Assembly (NCBI RefSeq): GCF_048128805.1
Contig: NC_135999.1
Location: 20,566,949-20,630,948, forward strand
Length of the DNA stretch: 64,000 nucleotides
Source of the DNA: Centroberyx gerrardi
Taxonomy: Eukaryota; Chordata; Actinopteri; Beryciformes; Berycidae
Reading direction: 5' to 3'
This document shows, piece by piece, positions 9,575-62,786 of the stretch; position 1 is the stretch's first letter; each line of letters opens with the position of its first letter. The position numbers were made by a program, and so were the translations under genes. The notes beneath the pieces are model-generated. The model was given only the letters and a program-made list of their open reading frames with translations, was not told the origin of the DNA and made no database searches.

Positions 9575-12500
9575 TGCACACCATAATCATCATCACTGCT
9601 CACCCATTAAAACATTGCACTTGAACATCTGGCTCTAAGTTTTGTTCCATGCACACACTAGGGTTTCCCATATATTGATTATATTTTAAAGGTGCAATAA
9701 TTAAGATTTTTACTATCCCAATGTACAACATGACCATAATACATCTGTGGGGATATGATAGGGTTGTAGATCAATACCACTGACTCAATGATTACAAGTG
9801 CTGAGATTTCTGGCTTTCAAAACTCACTTTCCGGTCTGTACTCTCATTAATTTTTAGAATGAAAACTCCCCACCCATCCACCCACCTGCTCACATTTGAC
9901 TGCTCAATGATGGGGGACAGTGCTATAAGCGAGCGACTGGCGTTGCAAGACATTTTCTATTAACAGCTGCCACCCAAGCACATTTTTGTTCTTGAATGAT
10001 TGCAGGTGCTGTGGTGCACTAAACTGGTGTTTAAACCTGGTGCTTCTTGTCGATGGAGTTTAATGTCGTCAAACACTGAAAGCGTGTTAGTGAACTACAA
10101 CAACCATAATTCATAGCACCTATGACGCAGTTTGTGCCAACAGAAACTAAATAGAGGCATGATTGAAATGCAGCCTACACAATATACTGAGGAAGTAACC
10201 CATTTGTAATCAGCTGCATGTCATACTTACTCCATAAATCTAGAGATAATCAGATGGCAGTGTAATTTAGTTAGCAGGTTAGCCAATACTAGCCTCTTTA
10301 TCTTGTAGTTCAGGGAGTGAGAGACTTTAGTGTCTGAACAAAGACAAGATACTGAGCTGAGCACATGAAAAATTTAATGGAGGAATTTTCTGCACACAGC
10401 TCCCCCTCACCCTGCCAAAGTAAAACTGCCAACCTGTGGGAAACACTGCTCACATGTCAAGTTTTATATCCTCGCCTACATAATGGGTAATAATAACAGT
10501 CATGTGATTTCAAAGCACGTAAGCTTTTCCATTGAATGAACAGATGAATGAAGAAGAGGGAACTGGAAATCTGAAGTCTATTTTAGTAGCGCATATCAGC
10601 TTTAATCTTACCCTAGACTCCAGACTCTAGTTAAACTGCATGTGACTTTTAGGGAAGTAGAACTGATGACCAAGCCAGTGAAAAACTTAGACCTCTGCTT
10701 TTCATTTTGCGTTGGCTGGCAGGCTGACGGATCCACGTTATTTTGGTGGTTGAACTTGACAATGAGGAAGCAAAGGTTATTTCCGAAAGAATGACATTAT
10801 TTTGTGTGGGAGGCAGTCTTACCATTTGTTTGGACACGGGGCAGAGTCTGGGTGATTTGGAGCCCAGGGTGCCATTGTCCTCTGGGTGACTCCCATCCTG
10901 CAGCAGATAAATACAAGAGTCCCATTAGCTTTGATATAAGAGGCCCTTGTCATAACAACACTATCACTATAAAATTCCTGGGTGAGTCCTGAGTGGTTCG
11001 ATGACAACGTGCTTAAGATAGTTACATAACTGTTCTTCATATGATATGGAGCACCTATTGAGATCGTGTTGTTGGGTGTGTGTGAGGGTGTCTCCCTGTT
11101 ACAGGCTGAGTGACACCTAATTAACATACACTGGGTGTTCCTGTTCACATGTTCATACACATCACATCGACCTGGTTACAGGTTGTTGTGCCTGTTCTAT
11201 TTACAGGTGTGCGTGTTTGTGTGTATTAGGGGAGTATTATATGTATTGAATAAAATTAGTAAGGACTCAAATTGCTCACCTGATAGTAGACGAGCCACCT
11301 CTATTTGTAGGTCTGTTTGTTTGTATTGGTCATGAACAATGGTGCTTTCATTACTTTATGGAAACTGGCCTGACCATGATAACAGCCATATCACTAAATA
11401 AACATTCATATCAATTGTTTTCGATGGGGCAACGGCTCTAGGGACAAGAAAGGAAGAGTGGCGGGTAACTGCAAAAACGTTCAAGGATTTGAGGAAGTTT
11501 AGTCCTGTAATTTTAGTTTAAAAATTATGAGACTGACATCAGATCAAAACAATTTTGATCTAATGACAATTTGTGTGTGAATGATTGATTTTAAGGCAAT
11601 TCCTGTTTCTGTTATTAGATTAGACCTCTATAAGAACCGGGCTCTGTGTGCACTGCAAAGGTAAATACAGTGTGCGCTCGTACACCAGGCAGTACGGTAG
11701 AAGTCACACAAGCATGAGGTGGTGTGTGGTACATTCACATACCAGGAAGCAGCTCAGTGATTTTGATTTTTGATTAAGTACTGTGGCTAAGTCAACGTAT
11801 AAATGAAATAGTTTGTTCAGTGATTCTCTCAGTTACAACAACACTGTGCTACCACAGCACTTCGGTGTTAACAGGTGGAGTTTTTAAGGTCAACGTAGGT
11901 TCACTCACTCCAACCATGCACCCCCCTCACCCCACCCCGCCACCCAAGCACCTAGAAAGCACCAGCACACTTGATGAAATAATTATCCAGATTTTTCCTT
12001 CATAAATTATGCAGCACCATCAGACCACATTATCCTGGATGTTTGTTAATGTAGAAAACACAGCTGGTTACCTCCTCCAGGATCTCTCTGCTGGTTAACA
12101 CACAGTTCTCATCAGGGAAGGTCTCACATAGGTGGTCAAAGCTGGCCATACATTCCCTGAAACAAAACATATCCAAGCTATTAGTTTTCATAGTTGTAGA
12201 TTCAATATTCACGACTGCATAATCCAGTTTGGCAAACTCTAAGAACCTGTAATGTGCTTCTCACAGCCTGCTTTTTGTGATTCAATGAGCCAGAAGTGAA
12301 ATAATTTTGGGAAATCAATTTTATAAATTATTTTCTAAATCTCTCCTTTATCCACTCTCTGAACTGTTTAAAAAAGTCAATATTTGGCAAGTTACAAGTC
12401 CCACTGCTAGTTTTTCCTTTTATGCCCACAGAAATGTCTTGATGGTGCATTTGACATGATTCTGAGTAAAAACAAATCAACATCACTGAGTTAAGGCCTA

Positions 12501-30800: not shown

Positions 30801-33009
30801 TTCACTTCCCATCCTGGTGGTGCTGCGCTGGGCCTCGCTGCTCAGCTCGTCCGGCTGCATAGGCACTCTCTGGGCCTGGAGGTAGCAGAGGTTACAACCA
30901 CTCAGCGCTCCAAACTCAATTATTCATTTTCTCTCTACAGAATTTCCCTGTTTCCCTGTTCTGAATCAAGCTTCAATTCTTACCAAAAAGACTTGAATAC
31001 TAGTTTGATATCAACAAGTAACCTGTTATGTGGGTCATGTCTGTTGATATCATTCAGATATGTCACTCCCCTCCATGATTGGACTGGACACCAACTGTTT
31101 GTATTCAAATTATATACTAACCAAATAGTAATTGAGGTAAAGCTTTTGTGTATGATAGATTGGCGCGATTGTTGGAATTGTGATTCATCTCTGGTCTCTG
31201 GTAGGACTAGCACAGCATTTGATACTGTACTGTATATATGTTCAGTTACAAGTGCAGAGGGCCAAGTAAGAATGATTGATTAGTAATCAAGAGAGGGAAC
31301 ACCACTGAAATAAAACCATACAGTACTGTATGGTTATTATATATATTATTAAGGTATACACATATACCGCCATGTGTAACTCACCCTTCTATCGACTTTT
31401 TCGGTCTGGGCCTTGCGCTCCTCAACCTGTTTCCTATAGCAGGCTATGACGCGCTCTCTCTCTTTACGCTCTTTGTAGAGCAACTCCTCCTGCTGCTGTA
31501 ACTCCGCCTGGAAGGAGCAAGAAAGGAAGGATGGGGAGGGAGAGAGAGAGAGACAGTAAGACAGAGTGTTAGTATGATAGCAATGTGTAAGTGAAGAGCA
31601 TGTTCGAGGATAATAAAGTAATAATGGATATCAGTAATGATGATGACAATAATGACGAGGGCAGTCATCCTTGCTAGTACTAATGTAGATGGTGGAGGAG
31701 GTTGTGTGTCACCTTGGCAGCGTCTTTAGAGAGCTGGGCATCATTGTTCATGACCTGCAGGTTGTGATGCTCCTCTCTGTGCTTCAGGATGTCTGCTTCC
31801 AGGCAGTCCAGCTGGCCCTGGAAGGACAGACTCTCCTCCTGACGTGGTGAGAGTGGAAGAGTGAGAGAAAGAAAGAGAAGGACAGGAAAGATAGAGGGAA
31901 GAGAGAGAGAGAGAGAGAGAGAGGAGGAAAGGGTGTGAAAAAGGACAAAGGATTCTGTAGTCTTAGAAAGATTGTCACAGCACTATGGCCCTGAGCATTA
32001 CACTCGTTTTTATTGGCTGTTGTAATCTAGAAATTGAAGCTTATTCTATGGTTTCACTGGATAATAGCATCAGCTGAATGCCTAAAATGTAAAATTTAAC
32101 TGATGATGTCAAAGGCAGCTGATGGTTTGACATTGTCCACCACTATGAATATCTGTCTAGTGACTATGATAAAGTTTCCTAAATACAGAAAAAAAAGGCT
32201 GATAAGGCCCAAAAAGCTTCACTGATGCATGGAAGTGCTGGTAAAGTGAGTCTGGGACAGGAACTACCAGTGTGGAAGCCTCACTCGCAGTTCACACACC
32301 ACCAGGTACAGAGTCCCATATCACAGGTACAACACAGTCTCATAGCACAGGCAATTACACTGTGGAGAACTCGAGAGCAATGGAGAGTATCCGTTGTTTC
32401 TCTGCATAATACCCAGTGAGAATGATTAGCAGACTGTGTACAAAACATTTAAGGTACGCAAGCACTTCAGCTCTCATGTGGGTGTGTAATGTAATGAGCA
32501 GTTGAATCACTGAACTTATGATCGACCTATTGATAAATACTGATAAATAATATGGACTGTGACCAAATTTGTAGTTCTTTCATCTGTAATCTCTACATTG
32601 AAAAAGGCTGTACAAAGTGTTGAGAATCTATATATAGAGTGCTATAACAGCTCAGCACAATGAGCGAATGATGCCATGGAAAAATAAAGAGGTGACACAA
32701 TCCATCATGGGAGACAGTGCCAAGAGAGCTTGTGGCAATGTCCACTACAAATTAAGTTCATTTCAATTCAGCTCAGTTGAGTTGAGTTCAGCTAAGTTCA
32801 GTTCTGCACAATTCAGCTCAACTGAATTCAATTCGATTCAAACATCTGACAATTGCACAAAATATTACCTAGAGGCTAAAAACGTTTGTATGTTGGACTT
32901 ACCTGCAGGTGGTTTTTGAGTTTGAGATAACCTCTCATGATGTGCTCAGCCTCCTGGCACTTTAACTGGGTCTTCTCCAGATTGTTCTCCAGCACCCGCA
33001 GGTTCTGAA

Positions 33010-33054
<45 letters not shown>

Positions 33055-34518
33055 GTTTACAGGAGCTGTTTATCTCTGTATGTGTGTGCTCACATGCTAG
33101 AAACTGAATGAGTGTATTTCATCAGGACTGGACACTGGGTAGAAAAGTTGTGGTTATCATGGGTTGCACGTCCCTACAGGCATCTACATGCGCCTGACAG
33201 TTGAATACCCGGGCATCCTCTGCTCTTTTCTGACTGCGAATGTCAGCAGACTGTGTTATACTGCTGCCCTCCGGCTTCAGTCTCTGGTACTGCAGCTGCA
33301 GCTCCTCCAGCTGCTGCCGGTGGGTCTGGGTGCTGTGTTTCAGGGCGTTGAGACGCTTCATCTTGATCAGCACCTTCTGGTCCAGCACTGTGAGGGCCGC
33401 CTGAGAGACAGTAAGCGAGTGTGTGTGAAAGACAGACAGACAGACATATATATATAGACTTAGAGAGAGGCTTATAGCCATGCTTGTGTGGTTGCTTTTA
33501 CCTTCCCGGACATGTTGCGGTAGGCATCCTTCTCCAAGCCTCTGTTATGAAAGGCTTCTTTGATGACATGTTCATCGCCCTAGTAGACATGAGACCAAAA
33601 CACACATTTTTCTCGAAGTGAACAAGACTGTAACTGCAAAAAAAGCAGTCTCGCTCGATCAGATTTACTGTTTAGTTGAATGAGGTAATAACAGGTAAAA
33701 ACAGACAACAACAGACAATAGATAAACAACAGAGCTGGGAAGGGGACTGCACTTACAGCAAGAGTTTCTGCAAACTTCCTGTGCAGTCTCTTGTTGTCCT
33801 GCCTCAGCTGAAGGATGGTCTCTCTGTTCTTCTTGATGCTGGACTGAGAGCTCTCATAGTACGCAGTTCTGTCGCCCTCTGGTGGATACATTCGTGGTTA
33901 CACCACCAATTATATAGGACAATTTTTTTGTTATTTTTATTTGGCATAGAAAGACTTCTCACATCCTAGGTAGGTACCCTAGGTCTCTTCCTGCCTATAT
34001 GTATTTGCCCATATACAACAATACTGGTATAAATGCCATTTCGTTGATGGTAGATTTAAACAGTTTATGTTGGATTTCTTTTTGTTATCTGTCCCTAAGG
34101 TCAGAACTGAATTAGACATGAGTGCCTTAAGCTCCCTCTTCACTTTTCACAAGCAAAATCATTTATGCGACTTTGACTGCATCATGCTTTTGTTAATTTT
34201 TTTGCTATGTCGTTTATGCTGTTTTCTCGGTCAGGTCTCCCTCCAAAAGGAGATTCTTAAACAAAATAAACGTTACAAATGAACATTGTTTATTGTAGCT
34301 ATTGATTAAACTTATATCGATGAAACTGATAACTAAAAGTAGCCTAAACTTGATTTGCTAGTTAACCTAGCTAAGATCAGCCAAGACCTCGCTCCTGCAG
34401 ACAGTGACGGTCAGGCTGTGTAGTTTCAGACAAACTTACCGAGTAGTTGAATTTTTCGCTGCATTTCATTTATTTGGTCATGTAGGGGCGGTTTCATCGC
34501 ATCGGCACTGAATGCCAT
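27855..34518 (-). CDS. odad3: outer dynein arm docking complex subunit 3 (CCDC151)
   Basis: Coiled-coil subunit of the docking complex that anchors outer dynein arms to the doublet microtubules of motile cilia; human loss causes primary ciliary dyskinesia. Thirteen coding exons in transcript order: 34440-34518, 33757-33878, 33502-33579, 33209-33400, 32903-33004, 31713-31838, 31385-31507, 30726-30875, 30392-30552, 29724-29880, 29231-29380, 28068-28152, 27855-27982. They join in phase to about 550 residues (human about 595). The start is MAFSADAMKPPLHDQ; conserved pieces include RTAYYESSQSSIKKN, LRQDNKRLHRKF and MKRLNALKHSTQTHR. Most exons are Glu/Gln/Lys/Leu-rich heptads, and the C-terminus is acidic, then basic (EEDESEEDEADII, ending KPWKKKKGKF). 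Its position next to rgl3, on the same strand, matches human RGL3-CCDC151. Many exons start and end in phase 0. Confidence 0.92.
28686..28803 (+). repeat. 20-bp perfect direct repeat, spaced 98 bp
   Basis: AACTACAGAGATTATGCCTT occurs at 28686-28705 and again at 28784-28803, in an odad3 intron. It may be a remnant of a small tandem duplication or of recombination between element copies. Confidence 0.75.
31901..31922. repeat. (GA)n microsatellite
   Basis: Eleven GA units inside a longer purine-rich stretch (31850-31930), in an odad3 intron immediately upstream (in transcript sense) of the exon at 31713-31838. Confidence 0.9.
32756..32850. repeat. degenerate TTCAGCTCA-type pentamer/decamer repeat
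   Basis: Repeated, imperfect TTCAG, TTGAG and TCAAT words with a period near five. It resembles the ATTGA-like tails of fish LINEs after decay. Confidence 0.5.
33011..33049. repeat. (AC)n microsatellite abutting an odad3 splice acceptor
   Basis: About twenty AC units. The run ends six bases from the acceptor AG of the exon at 32903-33004 (read on the minus strand as GT repeats, then CTTCAG). There is almost no ordinary polypyrimidine tract between them. Confidence 0.9.
34200..34275 (+). repeat. retroposon 3' tail fragment (copy 3 of 3, decayed)
   Basis: CGGTCAGGTCTCCCTCC, AAAAGGAGATTCTTAA and AAATAAACG keep the block order of the copies at 14134-14215 and 20610-20705. It lies in odad3 intron 1. 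Confidence 0.45.
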
Positions 34519-36204: not shown

Positions 36205-39200
36205 TTAGTCTACAGTTTTGGGCTCTTCATTGGACTTCTTGAGGAGGGTGAGCAGGTTCTGGGACATGAAGTACGGCCTCTCTGCTGTTCCATCGTTGCG
36301 TTCAAGGTCCTCCACTGTGACATGGACAAAAGGGGTTGAGAGAAAACACTTGCCTAGCAACATGCTAATATTGGCTGACAGCTCTCCTGTGTTTGTATTT
36401 GTCCATTGTCTCTAAGTGCCTAGCTTATTAGGAATTGTCCCTCTCTTATTTAAAGCTGACTTTGTTGTACATGCAAACTCACCTGTTTTCCCTTTATCCA
36501 AACGCCAAACAACGCGACGCTCATACATTTACACAGAACAAAACTACTGTGATTAAATACAATTACCTTTAATCAAGAACTACATCCAATAAACATGGAA
36601 TGTCATCAGTGGAAAATCTACTTACAACGCTCACAACGTGACAAACGAGAGAAAGGTACAAAAGCATCCAGAGACGTAAAGATGTTAGTAGCAAAGCGCT
36701 CAGTAGGCCGTGTTTACACCATGCAGCACTGAGAAAGGAGGGCAGGGGAGAGGAGAGGAGAGGAGAGGAGAGGAGAGAGCAAGGCAAGTCAAGTCAGTAA
36801 ACAATTGTAGGGTTTGCAGAGTCTGAGAGGTCAAGACGGTTGCGTCATGGCAACACAATCACAGCACTTATGCCAGTCTGAAATACCAAGGCAAGTAGGT
36901 GGCAATACAATACATGGGATCCCATCCAAGTGAGTGATCTTGGCGGGGGCGTCTCTACCAAGACTGAAGCAAAATAAATACGTTATAGACATACGCTGCT
37001 GCTGTATATACACATTAGTTCCATAGGAAAAAAAAAAAGATCTAATATTCATACAGTATATTAAATATGTTTGGAACCATTTGGCGTCAGCTGGTATTAT
37101 TGTAAACAGTGAAGGAGATTCACCATTGATTGAGATGGGTAGTTCTGACTGTAAACATGGTATTTAGTGGTTCTGTAGTGCATTCATCGACAGGATTAAG
37201 ACAGCAAAATATTAATGACAGTAATCAGGCACAGGGTCAGCACTTACAATGTTCTACAGATCTTCACGATATAAAAACCAACACTGTCTAAAACCAACAC
37301 AACAGAACGTTTTTTCAAGCTACAGAGATGCACTGGGCTTTTCGACCTGCTTCGACCCCCCACATGATGACCAAGACTCAAGGTCACACCACTGACACAG
37401 CAAGGCGATCTGCGTTTTAGCTCGTTGTATAGCCTACATTTAACAGGTCCTGATCACAAAGTTGTTAGGTACAGTTGTTCCGTTCGGCACGTACGCGTTT
37501 TATGTTTTATGAGGTTTTACCAAGCCTCGCTTTTTTTTCTTTTGTTTTTTTTGCCATTGCATTAATATTAACATCTACTCCTGTGGTGCAGACGGAGGAT
37601 CCTCTCCTTTAGGTTCCTCCTTCTCATCTTTCTTTTCAGCAGTCTCCTCTTTCTCAGCCTCTGCAGATGGAGGCGGCACCTCCTCGGCTTTATCCTCCTC
37701 TTTCGGCTCCTGCTTTTCTGCCGGTTCTGTCACGTCCGCTTCTTCTTTCTTTTCAGCCTCCTCCGGTTCACTGACTTCCGCTTTTTTCTCCTCGGTCTTC
37801 TCCTCCTGCGGCTCTTCAGCATCCGTCTTGGACTGCAGGGGCTGCTCCTCCTCGTTGCCCTGCTTCAGCGCTTCCTGCTGTTTTAGCTGGATCTCTCCAT
37901 CTTGCTGAAGAGGCGTTTCCTCCTCCACTCGCACCTCGTCCTGCCTTGCAGAATCTGCCTGCTCGACCCCGTCCCGGTCTTCCTCCGCCCTCTTTGTTTT
38001 GGAGAGGATCTCGTGCAGCTCGGGGGACATGAAGTACGGCCTGTCGGACGAGCCGTCGTTTCTTTCCAAGTCCTCGCCTTTCGAGTGTGCGTGTGTGTAT
38101 GTGTGATTTATGTTTGATTGAGTTAATAGAAAATGAGGAGAAAATGAAAACATGGGGAAAACGTGGTGAAAGAGAAGGTGTGAAAAATAAAGGGAAAAGT
38201 GAAATAAAGGGGGAGAAACGAGACAAAGAGGAGAACAGTCAGAAACATCGCAGGAACAAGAGGAAACCAGCAGCTCAGCCTGAGACAGTTGTATGAGTGT
38301 TTAAAGAGAGGACAGCTGATATAAAGATGCACCTGAAGAAGAGATCTGAATCACAACACTGTGCCTATCCACCGGCATGTTAATAACACCTACGCAGAGT
38401 TACTTACAGAAGCAGAGGAAGAGTGTGTCCACACACATGGCGTACACGCTGAAGAAGCCATGGGCGATGAGGTAGGATCCCACTACCACCGTCTAGACAA
38501 AGACAAAGTTGTAATGTAAGAGGTATGATGCAAGACCCACCAAGATGTAAATTAGGGCTGGGCGATAATTCAATATTATCGTTTATCGTCTTTCAGTGGA
38601 ATCATAACGTGATTTTGGATATCATGACAATTCTGCTGTCTAAATTGATGATAACAAGCAAATTTTATTTAAAAACTCAAAATGAGGTATGTGAAACACT
38701 TTAAGGAATATTACTTGAAAATTTCAGTTTTGTTTGACATCACACATTCAGTTCAATGGGATGCATATTAATTTGATTATTTAACATGTGATTTTGCATG
38801 CAATATCGTGATATATATCGAAATTGAAAAAAATCCTTATGATTATCATGATATTACAGTAATTTCAACCATATCTATAAATACAGTCATCTTGTTCTCT
38901 TTCTCTGTGGTAAAGTTTCACAGCCAAAGATGACATTGTATAGACATATTTCTATCTCACCAGTATGGGAACCCAATAGTAGTTGAGAGAGGGAGCGGCC
39001 TCCTCTACTGCTTTGATCCTTCCAGAGAAGAAGAAGAAAGAGCAGATCCCTGTACAGGAACAAAAATGTGAATGAAGGCTTACTGAATTTAAAACAGAAA
39101 GGCAGACAGACCGCTTCATTGCTTTTTGACAAGGTTTAGAAAATGTATCTTCATTTCAAAGGCAACTGCTCCCTTACCAACAATTCCAACAATGAGGAGC

Positions 39201-42200
39201 TTCCCAAGAAACAGGAGGAAGTCGGTCACTTTGTCTAAAACAGCCACTCTGTATGGAGAACAGGCACATTGCAGGATATGAAAGTAGAAAATAAACTGTT
39301 CTGAGAATGAATACTTAATGAATATTAGGATGTAGTCTAATGCTTATTGATTTTTCGAAACAAGATAACAAATAATACATGTAAATACTTATATTAATAG
39401 TAACAATAATAGAGGCTAATGTAGCTCTATTCAAAACCTAACGTTACATGAATGCCCACCTGACAATGTTCCTCATGAGAAGGAAGAAGGCATCTCGAGC
39501 CGAGGGACAGAAGCTTTTGCCATAGATGGCAATCTAGAGAGAGAAAAAAAGTATTTAACATCAGTTTAAAAAACAACCAGATCTGAAATCTTTTAGTCAG
39601 CCGTATTCCAGTTACAGAACCTCACCATGATGTAAGCGTTTCTGTTTAGGAACTTGATGCATTTCTCCAGACACCAGAAGCAGCACTTCATGCAGCTCAG
39701 CAGGAACTTGGTAAATTTGTTCTGGGCACCTGAAGGGTGAGAGCAAGAGGGATGAACAGTGTTGCATAAAATATCATGACTGGTTTACATGCGCAGAGTA
39801 ACCTGAGTATTGGCTGTACACTGTTATGGTGTTATTCAAGTTAGACTGTTTACATGAACCTTTGATACCCTGCAATTAAGTCTCCCTGTTTCCATGAATA
39901 AACCAATTAACAGAATATTCCTGTCCACCTGTGATGTGTCGCTTACAGACAGAACAGTCCGCAAGCGAAAAAGTATTAAAAGAGCTGGTTACTTCAAATA
40001 CAGGGGAAAGAAATGATGATCCCAATAGTAATAGTCCATATTTTTGTTTTCTAAATCTGAGTTTGCCACAGTAGCCCATTAAATATGGGAGTAGCCAGGC
40101 ATTTTAAGCAGGTTTCTCATGATCAGAATTTCATCTTAGCCGCGTTTTCTAACCAAGTTATGACGTTTACATGCGTTGACCCAAAGCCAGATTACATGAG
40201 TCATTAGATTACATGGATTATGAGCATTATTATCTATGCATGAAAACATAGCCACTGATAAATGTATGATAAATGTATGAAATGTATGCCTGATGTCTGT
40301 AGTCAATGAACCCCAAAGTGTATTTAAGTCAGTCTCCTTGTTCTAATGTTCTGCCATCTGACCTTTCAACTTGTGATCCAGGTACTCCAGAACGACCCTG
40401 ATGACCTGGACCAGAGACAGGATGAGAGAGCCGAAGGCCAGGGAGCCAGTGTGGAATCTGGACCGGAAGAGGAAGCAGAAACCAGGAAGAAGAGGGGGAT
40501 GGTAAGGGTGAGAGAGGCTCAGAAAAATCTGTATTTGTATAAGACAAGGTAACAACATTTCTTGCTCAGTGTTGAGATCTTGCCATTAGCCTACAGAATT
40601 TTTTTTTTTTTTTAACAAAGCAGGAGTTCACACACAAACACACACACATACACAAAAAAGTACACGCACGCACACACACACAAATACATACGAACACATC
40701 CAGCTTCTAACCTGAGCGCCCGTCCCAGGGAGGAGAAGATGGGGTAGGCGGGGATGTCGTCTGGCTTCTTGAAGGCCCAGTAGTAAGAGGCGAAGGCCCC
40801 CGACAGAGTGACCTGGCCCAGCGCCGTCACAAAGTTGGCGCACCAGAAGAAGAGGAAGACGTTGTAGAACTGGAACAAGATGAGGTATTTGTGGTAGAGG
40901 GTCTCACCACCGTAGAAGGCAAACAGGCACTCTGCGTCAGGACACGCGATTGACATGTTGGAGGTGTTGAACGTCTGGAGAAAGAGAAGGGGGCAGACCG
41001 GAGGATTAGAAAAGTGATTTTTGATACTGTGTATGGAGCTAAATCTGTGATGTTATCATGGGTAAAGATAAACAGTTTCATAAACAGTTTTTGACATTTA
41101 GTGGCATACCTTGGGGTCGCAGGTCTCTCTTGCGTGCTCACACTCTGTGGTGTTGAACACTTTGTAGACCTGGTCGTTGGAGGTGGACAAGAAACTGTGA
41201 AGCTGTCAAGGAGATTGCGTTAACGAGGGGGAATATGTTTGGAATGGTGATTTTTTTGTGTACAGACCAAGGTTATTATAGTTAACGAAAACTAACGAAA
41301 TAACGAAAACTAGGTGTGAAAAAACATTTTCGTTAACTGAAATAAAAATAAACACGAGGCTTTACAAAAAAACGATAACTAACTGAAACTGTATTGTGTA
41401 TTTACAAAACTAACTAAAATAAACTAAAATTATAGAGAAAATGTCTTTGTCAATTTATTTCATACATAAGCCTAGTATTATGGGTGGATATGAAATCTAT
41501 CTTCCAATTTTTTTTTTTTTTTCACCTTTTTGAATCTCGCCCCTGACAAATACCCCATATTACAAAAAAAGACTAAAACTAACACTGAAACTAATAAAAA
41601 CTAAACTAAAACTAAGCATTTTCAAAAAATAAAAACTAAACTAGCAAACCCACTTTAAAAACGAATTAAAACTGAAAATGAAAACAAAAAGTCAAAACGA
41701 AATAAAAATAAAAACGAATGAAAAATGCAAAACTATAATAACCTTGGTACAGACGAGCCACACGCAAGACAGCAGGTCAAACACAGACCTGGAGCAGCTC
41801 CCACATTTCATGCTGGCAGCTGCTGTCAAAAGCATCCCGCATCAATCTATATGGAATTTTCCACTATCACAATGATATAAAGAGGGATTAATTATGCAGT
41901 TAAACATTTATTATTAATCATGTTTTGAATGGCATGGAATAGACAGAAGGATACACAGCAGTGATGGCCCAGTAAGCAATCACTATGGCCAGGAGGGCAA
42001 AGGTCAGTAGCGGGTAGAACAGCGATGACATCACGTGCCCGACAGCTCTACCGAAGAAAACAATGGTCAAAAAACTGTCAACAGATCATCATATAATATT
42101 TTCCACTGGGGGGGAAGAGGGAGTTCCCAAACCAAAGTAACACATAAGCTTTGTCCACAGTTGTAATGAGACTACATACTTTCTTTCAGTGATGTTTGGG

Positions 42201-45200
42201 TGTAAGAACTAAATGTTTCCTCTCACTGTTACAGCAAACAAAACTGATCAAACTATATCTGAGCAGGCATGGTCACTTTTCCACCACACTTAAGAAGACT
42301 GTACAGTGTGAATAAAACAGAATGACCCTGCGCATTACAAGACGGGAATAAATTACCAACTCAGTGTGGCTAGAGAGGCGGTTAGACTGACCTGCTGGCC
42401 TCTTTGATGAGGGCGATGGCGATGAGAATTCTCTTCCTGAGGAAGATGAGCAGTAGGATGATGATCACCTCCACTATGGCCAGGATGATCACTGGGGAGT
42501 AGGGAGGAAAAATTAACACAGTAGATTAACAGCAACATTGATTTAACGAATGTTAGGGTTTGATTCATCAACCATTAATTCAAGAGCCTATTAAATAAAG
42601 GGTGTTGAGGAAGTGTGTTGTCCTGTATGTGTACATATGCACAAATAATCATAATGCGATTCTTTTCCTGAATATTGCAATTGCGATATAGTATACAGAC
42701 AGATTTTTCAATATTTTAGATTTTTCAGCAAACAAGAAACATTTTAATAATAAAAACTGAGATGTTATTGCTTAATATTTGCTGTGTTGGAATACAATGA
42801 ATGTTTTTTTATAATGTGCAATTTAATTTATAGGCCAGAAATTGGGCTCAGCACCAGAATACCATGACTAGGAGTTCAATTTGGTGCACCCATGACCCTG
42901 ATAAAATAATTGCAGCTTCTTGCGATTTGGAAGTTGAAGCAGTTCATGTCGCAATTTTAGTTTTTTTTTCTAATAATTGTGCAGCCCTAGTGTTTACATG
43001 ATAGTAAATCACATACACACTGGTAAAGAGTGTGTGCATGAATTTACACAGCAAATGTGTGTATGCTGCACGGACAAAAGAGCTGCATTATAGCATGGAC
43101 GTGTGGCTGTGCGTACTGAAGGCCAGCCAGGTCTGTCTGATCTGCAGGTAGACAGAGAAGTCCGTCTGCAGGCCGAGGTCACGGATGGTGACGTCAGCTC
43201 CAGGCTCGCCCTTCAGACTGGCAAACTCCATGTAACAGTGGAAAATCCCTAAAAAACACACGCAATAATATCCAAGTTAGAAAAGAGCATTTTAAAGTTT
43301 AAGTTGAAATATACGTTTAATATCTTGTAACATAAGCAGCATGATCTCAAATAGCAATTTTCTTATCTCTGCCAAGACACGGAAGACTTACCGTATCCAA
43401 TGACCAGAATAACCAAGACAATCATGACCCAGACCATGATGCCGGCCAAGAACCGCAACAGGACGATGAAAATCAGACTGACGACCATGGCGATCACCAG
43501 ACCGCTGGAGAGGGAGGACACATCCGACAAAAGCTTTAACACTTCATGGTATTTTAGCTTTGCGTGATCCTGAGTTAAACTAGTTCAACAAGTTCAATGT
43601 GGGGAAAACTGGGTCTGTTTCACATGTAAAAATATCATGTTTGTCTGTGTCGTTCTATTACAGTAACCACTAGAGAATGGAGAGACTTACAGCAATATCC
43701 AATGCCAAGATTGAGTGTAGTCCTCAAAGATCCTCATGGCCACCTGGCGAGCTTCAACCACCACATTTGACTTCCTGTAACAAAAGGAAATCTATTTAAC
43801 GCCTCCCACCAGTTTCCGAAATTAACTTTTCGGCTCACCTGCAAAACTAAGAAAAACATTTACTGCTAAGAATCATTTTTACCAGCCAAAGTTAATATAC
43901 ATTTTTCATAAAAACATATCACCCGGCCTGTTTTCAATGCTAGCTCTTGTATAGATTCGGGTGCTGTGTATAACATTCAATAAAGACACTTATACAGTGG
44001 ATAAAGTTTGTAATCCATCTGTTTGTAATCACCTGTGACTCGCCACATGAGACTAATGTTATGTTTCAACTAACGTTAGGCCAGTTAACCATGTAAACAG
44101 CTGAGGAACAGGAGGAAAAGTTTACAGAGGTTTAGATGCTACTGCTCTGTGTAAAGCCAGTGTAATCTGATTGGAGCACAGTCAGAGAGTGTAGTGTGTG
44201 GCCAGCAGCATATTTGAGAAAAGGCAAAGACTGTGTATTTGGGTTAAATATTTCAGCTCCTGACAAAGTTCCCCACAGGCTGCATTCGTGGTCCGGCTAA
44301 ACTAGGCTTGCCTGGTCTTGTTTTGAATAGGGGTGTGGAAGTGTGCACTGCCATACAGTAAGAAAGACTCACTTTGACGCTTCCAGCAGCTCTGTGGCAT
44401 TGACTTTGTCGCCCTCTCCGTTATCCAAAATGGTCTCGTTGCCCACCACCACCACCCCGCCTTTCATCGTTCCCAAGGCAGGCAGGCAGCGACGTGTGAC
44501 TGGAGAGAGAGTAGATGATCAGTTTGTTTGGTTCTATCTGGGTAACTTCACACATAAAAAACAAACCTATAGACACAACAGCTTCTAATAAAGGGTGTAC
44601 CTACCACTACGACTTCTTCCATTTCTACTAGTACAATTAGTACTGCTACTACTACTACTACTTAAACCACCTAGTACACCCTAGCAACCACCTAGTATAC
44701 CCTAGCAACCACCTAGTACACCCTAGTGACCACATAGTACACCCTAGCAACCATCTAGAAACACCCTAGTGACCACCTAGTACACCCTAGCAACCACCTA
44801 GTACACCCTAGCAACCACCTAGAAACACCCTAGTGACCATATAGTACACCCACCTAGTACACCCAAACTATAACTTTAACTATATTTTTGGTTCGATCTC
44901 AGAGTGATTTTTTGGATGTAGAGACAACGTCGGTAAAGTAATCATCCTCCATTTTGCTGTGAATATTCAGCGCCGAAATAAGATGATATCGTTGTAGTGT
45001 GAACGCTTGAGCAACAATGTATCGTTACAGATTACAGTTATCTTTTTAGTTATCACTCTAGGTGTGAATGGGCCTTAGGGATGAAAATTAAGTGAATAAG
45101 CAGGAGACATTCACTCACAGGCTTTACTGGGCATGAGCATGGAGGGACACAAGCCGTCCCTCAGGATCTCAGGAGCACTCTGAAACACACAAGTCCTTCA

Positions 45201-48200
45201 CTGTGCTTTCTTATAACTACATTTCACAGCATCGGTTTAAACATGCATAGAATGTGAATTGTCTACTCATCCGGTTGTTTACCAATTTGGAGAGGTCCAC
45301 TCCTTCTTTACAGTATTGCTTGTAGTAGTCTTTGTCTTCTTTGCTGAACTGGGCTTTCACCAATGTAAGGTGCTTGGTAGGACAGCTTTCCACACATAAC
45401 TGCACAAAAATAACGACATAAAAGTCATGGCAATCAGCATCGCATGAGATTAAATTCGCCCAAATTAAAAAAAAAAATACACATTGTTAGAAAGGGGAGA
45501 AAATAAGCAGTTTGATAGATGCAGTAGATGTAATTTCTGACCTGTGTGGTCGGGCACTGAAACTCCAGCAGCACCAGAGGACTGGCGCACTTCAGGATGT
45601 TGAAGTAGAACAGCAGAGGCTTCTTCCTATTGTGTAAGAACAGTAACAGAACAGTTATCTCTCTCTCTCTCTCTCTCTAAGGCCTAAAAGCAGATTATTA
45701 GTTCACAGTAATATATATCATTCTCTGAGGTGTAAACAAGCTGTTTTTCTGAGATAATCTCAACGTGAAAGACTTCCAAGGACACATAGATATTGTAGGT
45801 GTCATATTGTTCATATCAGTGGGTCCAAGCATGAGAGGACTCACTCCAGAGGCGTTCCCGCCTGTCCGCAGAACTGCCCCCTGCTGTCGGTGGGATAGAT
45901 GACTTTCCTGGGGTCTCCCTGGGACCAGGCTGCATGGAGGAGAATAGAAATCACTCATACTGAGGCAGAAGAAAGGTGGCTTTTGCACTGAATAACAATC
46001 AAATAACACTGGAGCCCCTAAAGACAGAATCTATTCATATCGTTTATCGAGTTTCAGAGTGTAAATGGACACATTTGCACTGATTAAGTACACATTATGG
46101 ATGACAGGTAAACATAATACTATGTGTGCTGTATTTGAAATACAGTAGTAGCAGCAGAGTTGAATCTTACCTAGGATACCCACACCAAAGTAGCCCACCA
46201 GGGCAATGATGAAGAGAATACAGCAGAGGACATCTGTGCATCCTCTGATGTGAGGAGAGAGGAGAGGAGAGGAGATGAAAAGATAAAAGAGGAGATTAGG
46301 AAGAGACAGTATGTTGTTATTGGTGCGTTAGAGTAAAGTGCAGAATGATCAGCAGTGATTGAAACACAGACACTCTTACCTGTTGTGAATCGGTCCTTTG
46401 AAAGTGGGGTCAAACTTCCTGGACTCCCCTGTGGACAAGAAGAGATGTTTTGTTATTGTCTGCTCCTGCAATTTGAACCTGTGACTTTCAACTTCTATCT
46501 CACTCTCTCGTGCCTCTAAAATAGAATGCATGCCATCAGACTACTTCACCAAAATCTAGTAGGCTCACTTTAGTGACTATCAGTAGTTTAGTTGAACTAT
46601 CCATTTGTGAATCTAAGCAGCCAAAATTAACACACACCAAGCACCAAATGCTGGTAAAAAGTTGTCTTTGGTGGATAAATCAACAGGGATCACCTGCCAC
46701 ACTGGTCAGTAACTTTTTGAGACAAGAACATTTGAAAGCCTCACTTGTCTGCAGTCTTTGGTCTTTGCCTGTTCTCAAACTTTGGTAAGTGTAAATGAGT
46801 AAAAAATGACTAGATGTGAATGGGGCTATATAGCTAAAATGGCAATTCATGTGAATATGCAGCTATCAGACCCTTGTGTTTTTGTGGTTTTGGTATTAAC
46901 TCAGTCTCAGCATCTCCGAATACCATAGCTTGCATGGCCAATTACAGACAACTTTAATATTTTTTTTTTGACGCATTTTGGCTAACCAACGCTGACTGGC
47001 CAAATGGTCTCAAATATAAAAATCAGCATGGACGTGTTGCTTGCAACAGTGTTACAACATTGTCAGCAGCTTGTAAACACAAATTTTATTACTCATTGGT
47101 ACAAAAATTAAAATTTCCTTTCGCAACAAACATCATTTGTCATCTTTCATTAATGTTGTTGGATAGCTTTAACGTTAGCACATTTGAGGTGCATATGGCT
47201 GTGGCTGATATTGTTTATGTATCACTGATAGCTCGCTGCCAAAACATGATTGTGGAAGCCACATCACCTGCTGAGTGTTTAGTTTTGCAATCTAATTGCT
47301 TATAGAATTTACATCAAAACAAAATCAAAACAAAAGGCGTGCCGTAAATCAGTTTCAGCACACAGGTTAGTGACACACAGATGCACTCATTAAGTATTTA
47401 TGATTTAGTAAATAGGCTAAAACCCATTTTTCCCAATAATTTACAGTATATTTCATATGAATATGATATTTTAACAGTATCTTTGAGGGCACTCTTTAGA
47501 AAAGTAAAGGCTTTTTCTACTGTGTGGGTGGGAGATACATGCACATGAGTACAATCTATATGAGTCAGCGCATGTGTTGACAAAGCAAGGACATTTTCCA
47601 CAACAAAAGGATTCTTCTGCCAGTCTGACATGCCTAGCAACCCACAAAATGGCTCCCCGGTGACGGAGAGCTCCCTGTGGACATCTCTAGCCACCATGGA
47701 AACACCTCAGACACAGGAGAGGAGGAACACCAGCCAAGCCTACTCAGCCTGCTCGCTTGCAGGGTGACATCATCATGTGCTAACACACTGTGAGTCAACA
47801 CTTTCAAAGAACAATGTGCATGAATGTACACATCAACAACATTTATAAAACACACACAATAAAACAGTGTCGCAATGTGCAATACATGTAATATCCCTAG
47901 TTCAGGAACAAGACCACGCCTCAAGCACACATTCAATTTCCTGCTCCACCCTATTTAAATGCGCCTAACCATGACCTTTTCTCTCTCTCGTATGTCTCAG
48001 TTCTCTCATCCCCCCCCCCCCCCCCCCCCCAACCCCTTGCTCTTCTCTCTCAGCACAGGAACCACAGGGGGATACGATGGAGCCAAGAAGACTCCCCATC
48101 AGCGAGACAGCACCCCCACCCTGAGTCTCAATTCCCTGGTTCCTCGAGCTAACCATCGACCCCAACTCACTCGACCCCCTCGATTCATCCCTTCATCTCG

Positions 48201-51200
48201 ACCCCTGATTCATCCCTCCACCCTCGACCCTTGTTTCATCCCTCCATTCTCGACCCCTCTTTCCCTCAATAAACCATCTAAATACATCTCATAGTGGCGT
48301 GGTCTTTGTTAGTGAATTGAGTAATGTGTGAGTCAAACAGGCCGGACCAACATCCTCTTATGAGCCAAGATCCCAGACACTGTGGCATCTTGTCACGTCA
48401 CTGTAAATGTCTGCTGCTGGCTGCTCAACTCAACTATCCCCTAAATACACTGCAGCTACAGCAGCACAGTGACATTTTGAGCCAAGCCCAGCTTGTTGTT
48501 GTCACTGCCTACCTAGTCTGCTACTCCACACACTGGACACACACACACATACACTCACTCTCTTCCCACCCATTGTAGAGGCACAACTGTACCACTTGAA
48601 AGGTGTCACTGGTGTTTTAAACTGTCTGCTAGAGGTGATGTGTGATATACAGTATTTGAAAACAGTCTACTACGCCTAACTGTTACAGTTAGTGAAGGCA
48701 GTACTCTATAGCACAAGTTCTAATCATGTCAACAAACAAGTATTCAACAACAAATTAGCCTCCAATCTGTCATAAATCCAAAGCAGTGGGCAGAATCTGT
48801 CCTCTGAAAGATTATTACAGTACCGTTTTTTCTGTGTTTCGTCATTCCACCGTTATTTCTTTCTCACTCGCTTTCATGGACAGCTTTGTAGAGTTCTCTC
48901 AGTGCGCTGCGTTCGTGAGTTTCTTTACGTCTCCTTCCTGTATGAGGTTTGTGTCTCGAACCACTAACTCATCGCTTCCTTCTTCCTTCTGTACAAAAAC
49001 TAAAGCTTGTATCAGCTCTGCCTTCCTCTCCTCTCCCTGCTCTCTCTGTTTTTCTCCCTCCTTTTACTTGGTCTCTTTTCTCCCTCTCTCAGCGAGGGTC
49101 TTGTCAGGGGAATTGCGGCACACGCACAGAGAGAAGTATTGATGGGGGAATTGAGAGAAGAGCGGCGCCACAGCAACAAAAGATTTGAGGTCTCTTTGGC
49201 TCTGAGTAAGCCGCCCATGAACCCTCTGTTGCTAAATGTGTTGACATACACAGGACTAAAATATGTAAGTGTCACAGTTCTGGGTGCGGGGCGTGTTGTT
49301 GCCAACACTGGGGAAAACTGACTCTGCCATCCAAACATCAAAACAGTCTTTTACTCTGGCATAACAGTCATTACAGACTTCATTTGAATGAACATGGTAA
49401 ACTATCTTCACTGTTTCCTTCTGTTGCAGCTGTGCCAACAGAGCGGATAAACTCAGTTATTAACTGCATGCATTGCAGGATAGAGGGGTAACACTGTAAT
49501 GTACTGTCAAATCTTCAAAGTGGTTATATGCTCCAAAAATATCTTTTACTCTAACTATATAGCACTTGACAATACATAGGCTACCATATTAGCTGTACAT
49601 CATCATGTCTATAAATAACAAACAGGAAAAGAATCATTCATGTGCTATTGTACAGTTTGCTGCTCTTTGTCTCAAGAGATTACTGGACTTCTCACAATGA
49701 TTTCTCAACTTCTTGTTTCTACTCTAAGGCGTATTTTCCAGCCGTCACTTCGAACACACTCCCCTCCCTTCCCAGCGCTGTCAAATCATTCGCCTACAAA
49801 TGAGTCAATTTAGACTTTACTTCACGGAGCTTTAGCTGAAACGCGCACGAATCACACCAAGGATCAAAAACAACAAAGACTTTGAAGCATTCTCAAGACA
49901 ATGACTTGGTTATGGTGTGATGTGCGTGCCTGACACATGCGAGGCGGCGCGCTGAGCTGTATGTCCAGAGTATGTGAGATAAGACCGTCCTACGTGTTCC
50001 CCGCCGGCACATGACCTGCCCACCTTCACTGCCATGTGAGGGACCGACAGCATGCCATACTGTGTAAGACAATACTGACTATTGACCTACACATGCCCAG
50101 TCCAGAAACAGTGCCGTGTCCTTGCCCCTACTTCCGCCCTCTTGATGCTGATGCAGTCTAGATCTATTCCCCAGATACTAACCCTCCGCTCCTCAGAGCA
50201 ACGGCATGTCCAGGCAGTTTTCTACCTGTGACTGCATCAACATTACACAAAATACTTTGTGGAGGACAGGAGAGGAGTGGAGACTAATTAGACTACTTTA
50301 AAATAAATACTCTGTAACACTCACGCCTCCCTTATTTCTGTCATTCTGTAATATGTTCTCTATTCCCTTACAATAGAAGGAGATCTGAGAGGGCAGAAAG
50401 GAATAGAAATTTGTGTGGTATGAGAGATACTGGAAATTACATGTTAACTGCTGGCGAGAAGAGAGAGATTAGTGTCTAGATTGGCAGTAGGGGTATAAGG
50501 CATTAGTTTTAGGGTTATTAGTGATGATAATAACACATTTGTACAAGACTGTACAAAGTGCTTCATATAAAAACAAAAAGAAACAACTCAACATGGAATA
50601 AAAAGGAAGGGAACAAATAAAACGAAAAGACGACAGATGAAGATAAATCATTATATAAAACCAAGTCTAAAGAAATATATATATATGTAGCCTTAAAGGT
50701 GCTAAAAGGTTCTTAAAGCTGATGTTGTTAGTGCTTGTGGTTCTCAAAATGTCGACCTTATTTCTCATAAACCCTGGTTTATGAGATAAGGTTCCTGCCA
50801 CAAAGAGGATGTTGCTACTTGTCCCCGCTCCCCCCTCCTGCCATCGCTTCACGTGTGTTTGTTTTCTCTTTCACTTTGCTGAAAATGATGAACATGTTAG
50901 AAGTGATTTTTCAATCAGGCTTTCATTCGTTCCACCATCTGCCACTGCGAGAAACTCTGAAAGCTTTAACTCCAACAGCAGCCTCTTCCTGATTTGTGCC
51001 ATAAACCGATCCAGGAGATTTTCCACGAAAACCGACCCGGTGGCACACAATGTAAAATGCAGTGTAGATGCTGGTAAAGGCTGCCAATCTTCTCAGTGAT
51101 TGTCTTGTTTGTTTATGGCAATTACAGTAATTTCTCAAAATTGACGTGGTAATGATTTATTTGTGTTAATCTGCTACACATAGCACCTTTAAGAAGAGAT

Positions 51201-51708
51201 TTAAAAAAGATGTAAAAGTTGTATAAGATGATCCTGGGTTCCTCAGGCAGGTCGTTCCACAATCTAGTCTACTGGGGAACCATCCTAAAGGCCCGGAGGA
51301 TCTCAGTCTGAGCTCAGGTCAAAGGGGTTAAAAGGTCTGCAACATAACCAGGGGCCAAACCCTACTCAACTTTAAAAGTAATCAGTAAAATCTTGAAATT
51401 AATTCTAAAATTGAATGACAACAAGTGTTAAGATGCTAAAATTGGGGTGATCTGGTGTTTTTGTTCTACTGACAATAGGATATGTTTCTGGCTGACTGTT
51501 GACAGTTTGTATGAGTGTGCATGTATGCGTGTGTGTGTGTGTGTGTATGTGTGTGTGTGTACGAGTGTGTCTTAAGGGAAGTGATGATGTCATGACTGAT
51601 GTGATCCACTAATGGGCCCAGAGGGCTTATCAGATGACCCTTCCCTGGCTACCTTAATGGGTTAGTAGCCATTGTGGTTGCATGTGTGTTTGTGCGTGTG
51701 CGTGTGCG

Positions 51709-51763
<55 letters not shown>

Positions 51764-54074
51764 ATGTGCATGTGCATGTGTGCTGTACATAGAAGACATT
51801 ACGGACAGATTTGTTCTCTCTGTCACTTTTTTCTCACGTTTTTCTCTCTCCATTTAGGGCTTGTACAAGAATGTATGATTAATATACAGGAAATGGATAG
51901 AGTCACATAAACTGTGACATGAAAAACTATCTAGCAGCTGTCAATTCTTCAAAACCTCCCCTTTGGCGGTCACTAGTAAAGCCATTAGCCTACATGCTCT
52001 TTGACAGAGAGAGGAGGAAACACATTTACAAGTCCCTTTTCTGAAGGGCTAAATATTTGTAAAGTGCCAAACCCCGGCTCAAATCACCATCCCTCTCTCT
52101 AGTCCTTACAAGGACTGCTTAGACCACAACGGCAATCTGTCTGATTCTGCCAAACCAACAGCCAAGTCAGAAAGACAAGAGATCACTGGGAAACATTTAG
52201 GTCTAATGTGTGTATGTGTGTGTGCGCGTGCATGTGTGGTGTGTGTGCGCCCGTGCAGTGTATGTGGTAATGCATCTGACTGAGTGTTTGCCAGCTTAGT
52301 ATTGACTGGTTTGCCCCTTGAGTCTGTCTGTTGAGTGGGTAGAGCGGGCAGGGCTAGACACGGCCGAGGCAGAGCGAGCTGCAGCCTGCCCGACTCTGCA
52401 CACTCCCAACACACTGAGGGAAAATATTACTGTAGCAGGCAGCCATGGACGATCCACAGGTCCAAATATCCTAGTAAAACTGCAATTATTTGGGGAAGAT
52501 CCATTCTGTCGTATAAAGCCCTGGCTCTGTTTAACTGGCCATAGATGTCGGTCAAGTCGTTTATAACACAAAGGCTAAAACTGAGCTGGAATTGTGTCTG
52601 GTGTCTGGGAGAGAATCCAGCTTCTCCATAGAAAAGACCTTTAACTCCAGTTTAAAAGGGTCAGGGTTTATGACCTCTCACTGGATGTGGGGGTGGGGCG
52701 CCACGGGAAAAAAAAGGGCTGTTTACATGGTAACAGGAAAGCGACATGGAAACACTCCACACTCTGAGCTCCAAGGATCATCTGGAGAGGATGTGCATTT
52801 AACTCAGATATCGTGGGTGTGGTCTGGTTTACTATTGTAAGCATCTTACATTGTGAAAGAATAAAAAAACTGTAGCGGAGCAGCTCTCGCTTTGTCAGTG
52901 TTGTCCTCCCGCTGAAATGCCGGTGTGAGATGGTGGTTTTCTGCTAGAGCGGTCTCCGGCCATTCTCACATGTAATGGCACTGACACGGGGGTATTAAGG
53001 CAAGGAAAACACGAGTTACGAAAACTTCATGACTCAACAGTCCATATGAACAACAACCCGGCCCAGACACAGGACTGCACCAGTCAGGCTGCCATGTGGG
53101 CTGTCTGGTCTTGTGGGAGAAAATCCCAAAATGTGACACACAGCAATCTGCAATGAGTCACATCTTGATGGCTGTTATAGAGTATGAGTTTTCCATTATA
53201 TGCATACAATGCATGGGGATGAACAAAAACAATTACTATCTGTGAGTGCGTGTGCTTGTGTGTGTGCTTGTGTGTGCGTGTGTGTAAGAAATGACCATAT
53301 GTCATCCTACAAAACACCACATGGTTGTTGTGGCAGTTGATTAGTGCCAAGGGGAAAACACAAAATAGCAAACCTAATATAGCATAGATGCATATGTGAA
53401 CAGTTTTCTCTTCTGTAGCTTAAATGTGTTCATGTTTTCTTGTAGTTTGTCTATAATGCGCTCATATAGAATAACCTGAACATTAACATAATTTAATTTA
53501 AACCTAATTTTGTTTGGTATATACAGTAGGTTACTGTATGCAGGCCTCGGTTGTTTCAATGGATGACAATCTATATCAGGCTACTTTAGGCTATAGCTAT
53601 CAGTTACTGCAGTGGTAAAATGGTAGATTATGCCATATAATAATAACAAATAATTAAAAAAAAAAACTCTAGGCTGAACTGTCTGGTTGGTGGTTTCTTT
53701 TGAAGCTACGTGTCTGGTTTGTATCATAGGCTATTATAGTAGGGCAAACTACTGTAATTCAATATCCATCCCGATGCAGCGTCCATGACGCCTTCATCCA
53801 CTCCGTATTTTCCAATGAAAAAGAAATGGTCTAAGTACATGCACATTATCCAAGATTACAGATTAGACTACTTTTGAAAAACAAGCCGGGTTTGGAGGAT
53901 GAGGATGCCATAGATCTGCGTGAGACCCATGCGGTCCACACCCATCCATCCATTGCAGTCATTGTTTCCATTTCTTCCCTCGTTTTGAGAAAAATAAAAC
54001 ACCGAGACGAAAAGCAGAGAAATAAGTCTCTTCTCACCGTATTTCGGGTCCGGGTTTTTCTCCTCCAGCTCCAT
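36205..54074 (-). CDS. slc44a2: choline transporter-like protein 2 (conventional C-terminus)
   Basis: Multi-pass plasma- and mitochondrial-membrane choline/ethanolamine transporter. Exons: 54038-54074, 46380-46428, 46171-46244, 45845-45929, 45542-45626, 45283-45399, 45119-45179, 44373-44499, 43691-43774, 43392-43504, 43117-43248, 42392-42491, 41955-42047, 41110-41194, 40712-40974, 40363-40457, 39626-39729, 39460-39533, 39178-39248, 38961-39049, 38408-38492, 36205-36314. All phases agree; about 710 residues (human 706). Features: [14 protein letters not shown] leader; first membrane span about 31-55; Cys-rich extracellular loop to about 235 with two NXT/NXS sites (GNET, VNAT); the remaining spans; family signatures [29 protein letters not shown]-terminus [17 protein letters not shown]. 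The residue equivalent to human Arg154 (HNA-3a) is Arg. The MELEEKNPD start resembles the human second-promoter isoform; no exon like the first-promoter MGDERPHYYG was found. Confidence 0.93.
36741..36778. repeat. (GAGAG)n microsatellite
   Basis: GGAGA pentamer repeated about seven times, in the spacer between the two slc44a2 terminal exons. Confidence 0.85.
37575..38077 (-). CDS. slc44a2: slc44a2 alternative terminal exon with Glu-rich tail
   Basis: The acceptor (CGAAAG before 38077) is in the same phase as that of the distal exon, so exon 38408-38492 can splice to either. The start, [18 protein letters not shown], is clearly homologous to [17 protein letters not shown] of the distal exon. 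Where the distal exon stops after about 18 more residues, this one continues for about 145 residues that are highly Glu/Lys/Pro/Gln-rich (roughly three in ten Glu), with no hydrophobic segment. This makes an isoform of about 841 residues with a long, acidic, probably disordered cytosolic tail. The junction codon changes Leu to Cys. The stop is at 37575-37577. No strong poly(A) signal was found; a minus-strand ATTAAA at 36568-36573 is a weak candidate. Confidence 0.8.
38551..38879. mobile_element. degraded MITE (AGGGCTGGGCGATAA type) in slc44a2 intron
   Basis: It begins TTAGGGCTGGGCGATAATTC, the recurrent left end of a fish non-autonomous DNA transposon, followed by repeated ATATCGTGAT/TTATCG words typical of its interior. 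The inverted right end is not clear, so the copy appears truncated or diverged. Confidence 0.5.
41268..41746. mobile_element. hAT-type MITE with perfect TIRs and 8-bp duplication
   Basis: A 479-bp element in the slc44a2 intron between the exons at 41955-42047 and 41110-41194. The left end CAAGGTTATTATAGTT and the right end are perfect 16-base inverted repeats. Both flanks are the exact 8-mer GTACAGAC (41260-41267 and 41747-41754). The interior is A-rich with many AACTAAAACTAA-like words and no coding capacity. The 8-bp duplication places it with hAT elements. Confidence 0.92.
42640..42990. mobile_element. degraded MITE (AGGGCTGCACAAT type) in slc44a2 intron
   Basis: The right edge read on the minus strand begins CTAGGGCTGCACAATTATTA, and the interior carries GCGATTTGG, CGCAATTTTAG and TTGCAATTGCG words of a well-known fish MITE class. 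The left end is less clear. Confidence 0.5.
44668..44873. repeat. 20-21 bp minisatellite (CACCTAGTACACCCTAGCAAC)
   Basis: About ten tandem imperfect copies of a unit built from CACCTAGTACACCC and TAGCAAC or TAGTGAC, with an alternate ACATAGTA/ATCTAGAAA form. It lies in the slc44a2 intron between the exons at 45119-45179 and 44373-44499 and is preceded by a short (CTA)n run. Confidence 0.85.
45658..45678. repeat. (CT)n microsatellite
   Basis: About ten TC units, close to the acceptor side of the slc44a2 exon at 45542-45626. Confidence 0.9.
46617..46790. repeat. dispersed repeat, copy B
   Basis: Partner of 7919-8056. The shared blocks are CAAGCACCAAATGCTGG, GTTGTCTTTGGTGGATAAAT and CAGTCTTTGGTCTTTGCCTG. 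Copy B keeps a middle part (ATCACCTGCCACACTGGTCA) missing from copy A. Confidence 0.5.
48010..48032. repeat. C homopolymer
   Basis: An uninterrupted run of about 22 C. Such runs are prone to assembly and length error. Confidence 0.9.
48166..48262. repeat. short minisatellite (TCGACCCC...TTCATCCCTCCA unit)
   Basis: About four imperfect 24-27 bp units combining TCGACCC with ATTCATCCCT or TTTCATCCCT. It is followed by AATAAA and a GTGGTCTTTGTT phrase. The arrangement could be a solo-LTR edge, but no TG...CA ends or duplication were found. Confidence 0.65.
50692..51193. mobile_element. inverted-repeat element nested in another repeat
   Basis: Perfect 13-base inverted ends CTTAAAGGTGCTA (50692-50704) and TAGCACCTTTAAG (51181-51193) bound a 502-bp segment. 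A clear target-site duplication was not found. It contains a perfect 10-base-arm hairpin (50764-50785). Confidence 0.6.
50764..50785. repeat. perfect 22-bp hairpin
   Basis: Arms CTCATAAACC and GGTTTATGAG separated by two bases. Flanking bases extend the pairing imperfectly. Confidence 0.85.
51716..51762. repeat. (GT)n microsatellite
   Basis: About 23 GT units, bordered by GC-interrupted and GCAT-interrupted copies on either side. Confidence 0.95.

Positions 54075-57082: not shown

Positions 57083-62786
<5,704 letters not shown>

Follow-up and report, generated by a model that had tools for sequence, protein, structure and literature searches.

Does the slc44a2 gene of the berycid fish Centroberyx gerrardi end in two homologous 3′ exons between which splicing may choose, and does one of them provide this choline transporter-like protein with a long acidic C-terminus? 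Both possibilities were raised by an initial annotation made from the sequence alone, and they are considered here over the whole 64,000-nt stretch of DNA that was analysed (contig NC_135999.1, positions 20,566,949 to 20,630,948; hereafter the window). The coding features on which the question turns are the following:

54074..38408, minus strand: the 21 shared coding exons of slc44a2, from the ATG at 54074 to the phase-1 donor after 38408
38492..38408, minus strand: exon 21, the last shared exon (85 nt), with its phase-1 end at TTCT/GTAAGT
38077..37575, minus strand: coding part of the proximal 3′ exon, comprising a 17-codon homologous start and a 149-residue acidic tail, with the stop codon TAG at 37577-37575
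36314..36205, minus strand: coding part of the distal 3′ exon, comprising a 17-codon homologous start and a short tail, with the stop codon TAA at 36207-36205

In the rebuilt splice model all introns are GT-AG and no frame break occurs across the 21 shared exons. The model bears out the claim that exon 21 ends in phase 1 and that both downstream acceptors are in frame, the two bases needed after this exon being GC from the acceptor at 38077 and TG from the acceptor at 36314. Translation of the spliced models gives a protein of 710 aa for the distal form and of 841 aa for the proximal form. Residues 323-679 of the 841-aa form match the Choline_transpo domain (PF04515, E 1.7e-114), which places the predicted product in the SLC44 choline-transporter-like family. 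When the C-terminal 130 residues of the distal form were compared with PDB chains, residues 1-124 aligned, at E 3.5e-18, to chains named "Choline transporter-like protein 1". The gene is flanked by gcdh on one side and by odad3 on the other, the human counterparts of which both lie on 19p13. Human SLC44A2 itself has been placed at 19p13.2 (table in PMC11406361). These flanks favour slc44a2 over other SLC44 paralogues, the comparable paralogue sequences being CTL1 chains only.

Some further observations were made on the gene and its surroundings. Exons of gcdh were located at ~57600-62400 on the plus strand, five joined pieces being compared with 1siq (glutaryl-CoA dehydrogenase, E 1.3e-118), and exons of odad3 (ccdc151) at ~31400-33900 on the minus strand, where joined pieces were compared with 8j07 (outer dynein arm-docking complex subunit 3, E 1.8e-33). 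Intron 13 of slc44a2 (41195-41954, minus strand) is of the U12 type by sequence, judged by the consensus of this class, with the donor GTATCCTT and with TCCTTGAC shortly before the acceptor. Reading frames at ~12000-14100 on the minus strand resemble an RGL/RALGDS-type gene, and for the frame at 13169-13495 Pfam returned a sub-threshold FAM176 match and nothing else. Rfam gave no match at gathering thresholds in the whole window.

One 3′ exon was proposed to be a duplicate of the other, and both a motif search and a codon comparison agree with this. The proximal exon begins gcGAGGACTTG and the distal one tgGAGGACCTT, and a degenerate EDLERNDG-x3-RPYFM pattern occurs at exactly two sites of the window, both at these 3′ exons. 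In 100 shuffles the same pattern was found 0.00 times on average, by which a chance pairing of the two exons is ruled out. Among the 17 aligned codons ten are identical, four differ synonymously and three change the residue, with a pS of 0.60 (6 synonymous differences over 10.0 sites) and a pN of 0.12 (5 nonsynonymous differences over 41.0 sites). Over what is a short stretch, this is the pattern that would be expected of an old exon duplication of which both copies were kept as protein. Downstream of RPYFMS the proximal and distal exons are hardly alike.

The 18 bases of the RPYFMS codons (36262-36279 and 38025-38042, minus strand) are identical between both exons, unlike the EDLERNDG codons, of which four out of eight differ synonymously. 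This may reflect gene conversion or a constraint at the RNA level. The EDLERNDG-x3-RPYFM pattern was found neither in viral nor in prokaryotic contigs, and when 728 of the 841 residues (the tail being shortened) were compared with the prokaryotic contigs, 23 pattern-matching stretches were obtained, none of which was confirmed by tblastn; neither result says anything on vertebrates.

Beyond RPYFMS the proximal frame continues for 149 residues, close to the ~145 first estimated and, as had been described, rich in Glu, Lys, Pro and Gln: the tail contains 44 Glu (29.5%), 18 Lys, 14 Pro, 14 Ala, 13 Gln, 10 Asp and 4 Arg. Its net charge is about -32 and its pI 4.27, it falls on the disordered side of a charge-hydropathy plot, and no Pfam family matched it at E values up to 1. 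A microsatellite origin was considered and rejected, no tandem array being present within 37575-38077 at a score of 30.

Because the stretch is T-poor, its open frame alone is weak evidence of coding; 2.6% of Markov-1 sequences and 0.6% of mononucleotide shuffles of equal make-up are also open. Stronger evidence is provided by the triplet signal. The period-3 (base-by-codon-position) statistic of the acidic tail is 127.9, the strongest triplet signal in the window. The maximum is 30.6 in 5000 Markov sequences and 58.6 in 1253 other 447-nt minus-strand windows, which are mostly non-coding, no unbroken shared exon being of the tail's length (the longest is 263 nt). The signal falls at the stop codon, from 50.6 (37700-37551) to 14.3 (37625-37476) and 4.1 (37550-37401), and its reach as far as the TAG at 37575 favours the long proximal form; a tandem array does not account for it. 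Codon preferences of the tail show no clear match to the shared exons and are not decisive: GAG makes up 31 of the 44 Glu codons of the tail, compared to 24 of 29 in the shared exons, and CAG 12 of 13 Gln codons, compared to 15 of 17, but GCC just 1 of 14 Ala codons, compared to 32 of 50.

An alternative C-terminus of SLC44A2 had been hinted to be undescribed. This is not supported, as the literature already describes one human CTL2 isoform whose C-terminus differs (Kommareddi 2010, cited in PMC4320306), together with exons of mouse and human at the corresponding place. For the mouse, a table of splicing changes in SMN-depleted cells lists a Slc44a2 exon trio, the lengths of which, computed from the coordinates given there, are 85, 128 and 1348 nt; from the format of the table, the 128-nt exon in the middle would be alternative (PMC5063418). 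For human, exon 22 of ENST00000380614 (104 bp) is described as alternative and repressed by hnRNP H/F, and in HeLa cells the tested SLC44A2 exon was mostly skipped, while hnRNP H/F knockdown raised its inclusion (PMC4320613). The paralogue SLC44A1 (CTL1) offers a parallel in that it also has alternative C-termini, two splice variants having been reported that differ in their C-terminal peptide (PMC4320306).

Judged by position, by the 85-nt neighbour and by rank, the proximal exon is most likely the counterpart of the mammalian alternative exon. It would have in common with that exon the gene, the site between an 85-nt exon (in mouse) and the last exon, and the 22nd rank, and alternative use in mammals changes the C-terminus. 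It differs in that the 149 residues that follow RPYFMS here cannot fit in 104 or 128 nt, in that the acceptor has a CA-rich spacer without a G tract, and in that the exon is possibly a true last exon here. Either this lineage extended the exon and turned it into a terminal one (or mammals shortened it), or the exon is internal here too and has a truncated tail. As the choice of 3′ exon is already known in mammals, the part that may be new narrows to the long acidic tail and the odd acceptor. No description of the acidic tail was found in a literature search covering open-licence papers; predicted fish proteins that carry it may well be listed in gene-model databases.

On these grounds we consider it probable, with moderate confidence, that the locus represents the fish form of a conserved SLC44A2 (CTL2) alternative 3′-exon choice, in which inclusion of the proximal exon would add the acidic tail. 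The initial annotation had taken the two exons to be alternative last exons; the homologous, phase-matched pair and the long acidic frame with its coding signature are upheld, while the proximal copy is only possibly a true last exon, as the mouse exon at this position has a further exon after it (PMC5063418) and in this respect speaks against the reading preferred here. The features relevant to the 3′ edge of the proximal exon are:

36568..36573, minus strand: ATTAAA, which may serve as poly(A) signal for the proximal form; GU-rich sequence follows
36482..36485, minus strand: donor-like CAG/GTGAGT, with the G of its GT at 36482; an internal exon might end at this donor
37934..37937, minus strand: donor-like GAG/GTGCGA inside the proximal frame, which would make a 143-nt exon

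Four signal forms were searched between the exons (AATAAA, ATTAAA, AGTAAA and TATAAA), and the ATTAAA at 36568..36573 alone is present. Splice sites were scored from general consensus frequencies, not with a published scoring program. The donor at 36482 has a score of 8.3 and is one of three such sites on the minus strand, with a TGCATG 7 nt past it (36475-36470); the donor at 37934 has a score of 2.5. It is conceivable, if rather unlikely in our judgement, that the proximal exon is joined to the distal one by splicing and is therefore an internal cassette exon, like the exon of the mouse. A donor at 37934 would give a 143-nt exon that codes for the start of the tail only, the distal exon then being read in another frame; a donor at 36482 would give a 1595-nt exon with its stop codon ~1.1 kb before the intron, leading to nonsense-mediated decay. 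The donor at 37934 outscores 7 of the 21 shared donors and that at 36482 all of them, and such an arrangement would agree with the exon that follows the 128-nt exon of the mouse (PMC5063418) and with the 104-nt length of the human exon (PMC4320613), 104, 128 and 143 each leaving a remainder of 2 on division by 3. However, the triplet signal extends ~360 nt beyond 37934 to the TAG, which a 143-nt exon leaves unexplained, and the ATTAAA and the GU-rich sequence that follows it precede 36482.

Ending at the same strong donor, an acceptor-like site (7.1) and the donor-like site (8.3) frame a segment of 246 nt (36728..36483, minus strand), a combination that, at these cut-offs, occurs nowhere else in the window on either strand. 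Entered from exon 21, this segment would reach a stop after nine codons (LLHGVNTAY). It is not claimed as a real exon, because the pyrimidine tract of its acceptor is a CTCCT-type microsatellite.

The acceptor of the proximal exon has the lowest score in the gene (-6.8), against -5.2 to 11.0 for the 20 shared acceptors and 4.9 for the distal one. As 52% of all AGs on the minus strand score below it, it is about mid-range among them and therefore unrecognisable as a splice site by score alone. Its surroundings are characterised by the following features:

38080..38273, minus strand: AG-free pyrimidine-rich stretch (194 nt, 73% pyrimidine) upstream of the proximal acceptor
38084..38105, minus strand: CA-rich stretch between the pyrimidine tract and the proximal 3′ AG
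38122..38126, minus strand: candidate branch point TTAAC, the nearest YTNAY to the proximal acceptor, a consensus match only

The 194-nt zone is the longest of the 4188 AG-to-AG gaps on the minus strand, compared to 8-137 nt at the other 21 acceptors, and a pyrimidine content of 73% is reached by 5 of 3191 windows of equal size. The absence of AGs is partly due to composition, 4.4% of shuffles of the zone being AG-free as well. CA dinucleotides number 11 in 40 nt at the proximal acceptor and 0-6 at the other 21; equally CA-rich 40-nt windows make up 0.6% of the minus strand, and the stretch could have arisen by chance in microsatellite-rich DNA. The candidate TTAAC starts 49 nt upstream of the proximal AG, with further YTNAY candidates 60-107 nt upstream, and the pyrimidine tract ends near it, the remainder up to the AG being CA-rich. 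CA repeats are bound by hnRNP L and pyrimidine tracts by PTB.

This layout can be compared to known classes of exons. Exons preceded by a long AG-free zone are likely to have distant branch points and are more often alternatively spliced, the AGEZ threshold being 100 nt (PMC1431707), which is exceeded here, and a CA-rich element in this position relative to the acceptor has been named CaRRE1 (PMC4320613). The proximal exon would resemble distant-branch-point and REPA exons (PMC1431707, PMC4320613) both in its AG-free zone of more than 100 nt, with the expected link to alternative splicing, and in the non-pyrimidine element between pyrimidine tract and 3′ AG. It differs from REPA exons in that this element is CA-rich instead of a G tract, no G run being present in the sequence between the pyrimidine tract and the proximal 3′ AG, and in that the branch point is assigned by consensus only. 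In the species comparison of PMC4320613, the G tract at the acceptor of human exon 22 is found in other mammals and marsupials, and birds, reptiles and fish scored 0.

From 38000 to 37601, beside the acceptor with the lowest score in the gene, each of four 100-nt bins has a purine content of 69-80%, and it could be argued that this stretch was kept as an exonic splicing enhancer, the acidic peptide being a by-product. We hold this to be very unlikely: the in-frame triplet signal over ~450 nt stops at the stop codon, whereas an enhancer need respect neither frame nor stop. That the proximal copy is an unused relic, or is used only as splicing noise, is hardly credible, for although its acceptor is weak by score, the frame is open and phase-matched, the divergence from the distal copy is rich in synonymous change, the coding signal is strong and a mammalian exon lies at the same place.

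Under the preferred reading of a conserved alternative 3′-exon choice, an old duplication of the exon coding for the start of the cytosolic C-terminus would have given rise to two copies, both of which retained EDLERNDG-x3-RPYFMS and diverged afterwards. By default, the ordinary distal acceptor would be used and the 710-aa protein produced. Judged by sequence, the proximal acceptor is a poor one: an AG-free, CA-rich spacer separates it from its pyrimidine tract and its likely branch point, which lie far upstream. Its use would accordingly be limited to settings in which repressors are removed or activators act. Inclusion of the proximal exon would result in the 841-aa protein, the cytosolic tail of which (149 residues) is strongly acidic and probably disordered, and the mRNA would end near the ATTAAA at 36573. 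Since both forms share the transport domain, the effect of the tail would most likely be on partners, trafficking or membrane domain, and not on the substrate. The mid-range score of the proximal acceptor, the contribution of composition to the AG-free zone, the commonness of CA-rich stretches in this DNA, the codon preferences of the tail and the lack of an equally long unbroken exon among the windows compared for triplet signal count against this explanation. A bolder proposal, which we put forward tentatively and with considerable doubt, is that fish made the SLC44A2 alternative exon truly terminal with a selected disordered polyanionic tail, creating a tissue-restricted transporter form with partners of its own, and that its acceptor is held by a CA/pyrimidine-type silencer, at the place of the G tract for hnRNP H/F that arose independently in mammals.

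SLC44A2 carries the human neutrophil antigen HNA-3 and has been linked to venous thrombosis. The roles of its isoforms were called unclear in a research paper of 2014 (PMC4320306). If the homologous alternative exon spans fish to human, the isoform would be an old one with a probable function, and the much larger tail of one form would offer a clear handle on the role of the C-terminus. A single acceptor at which the control element has likely changed would, in turn, represent a tractable case of regulatory turnover.
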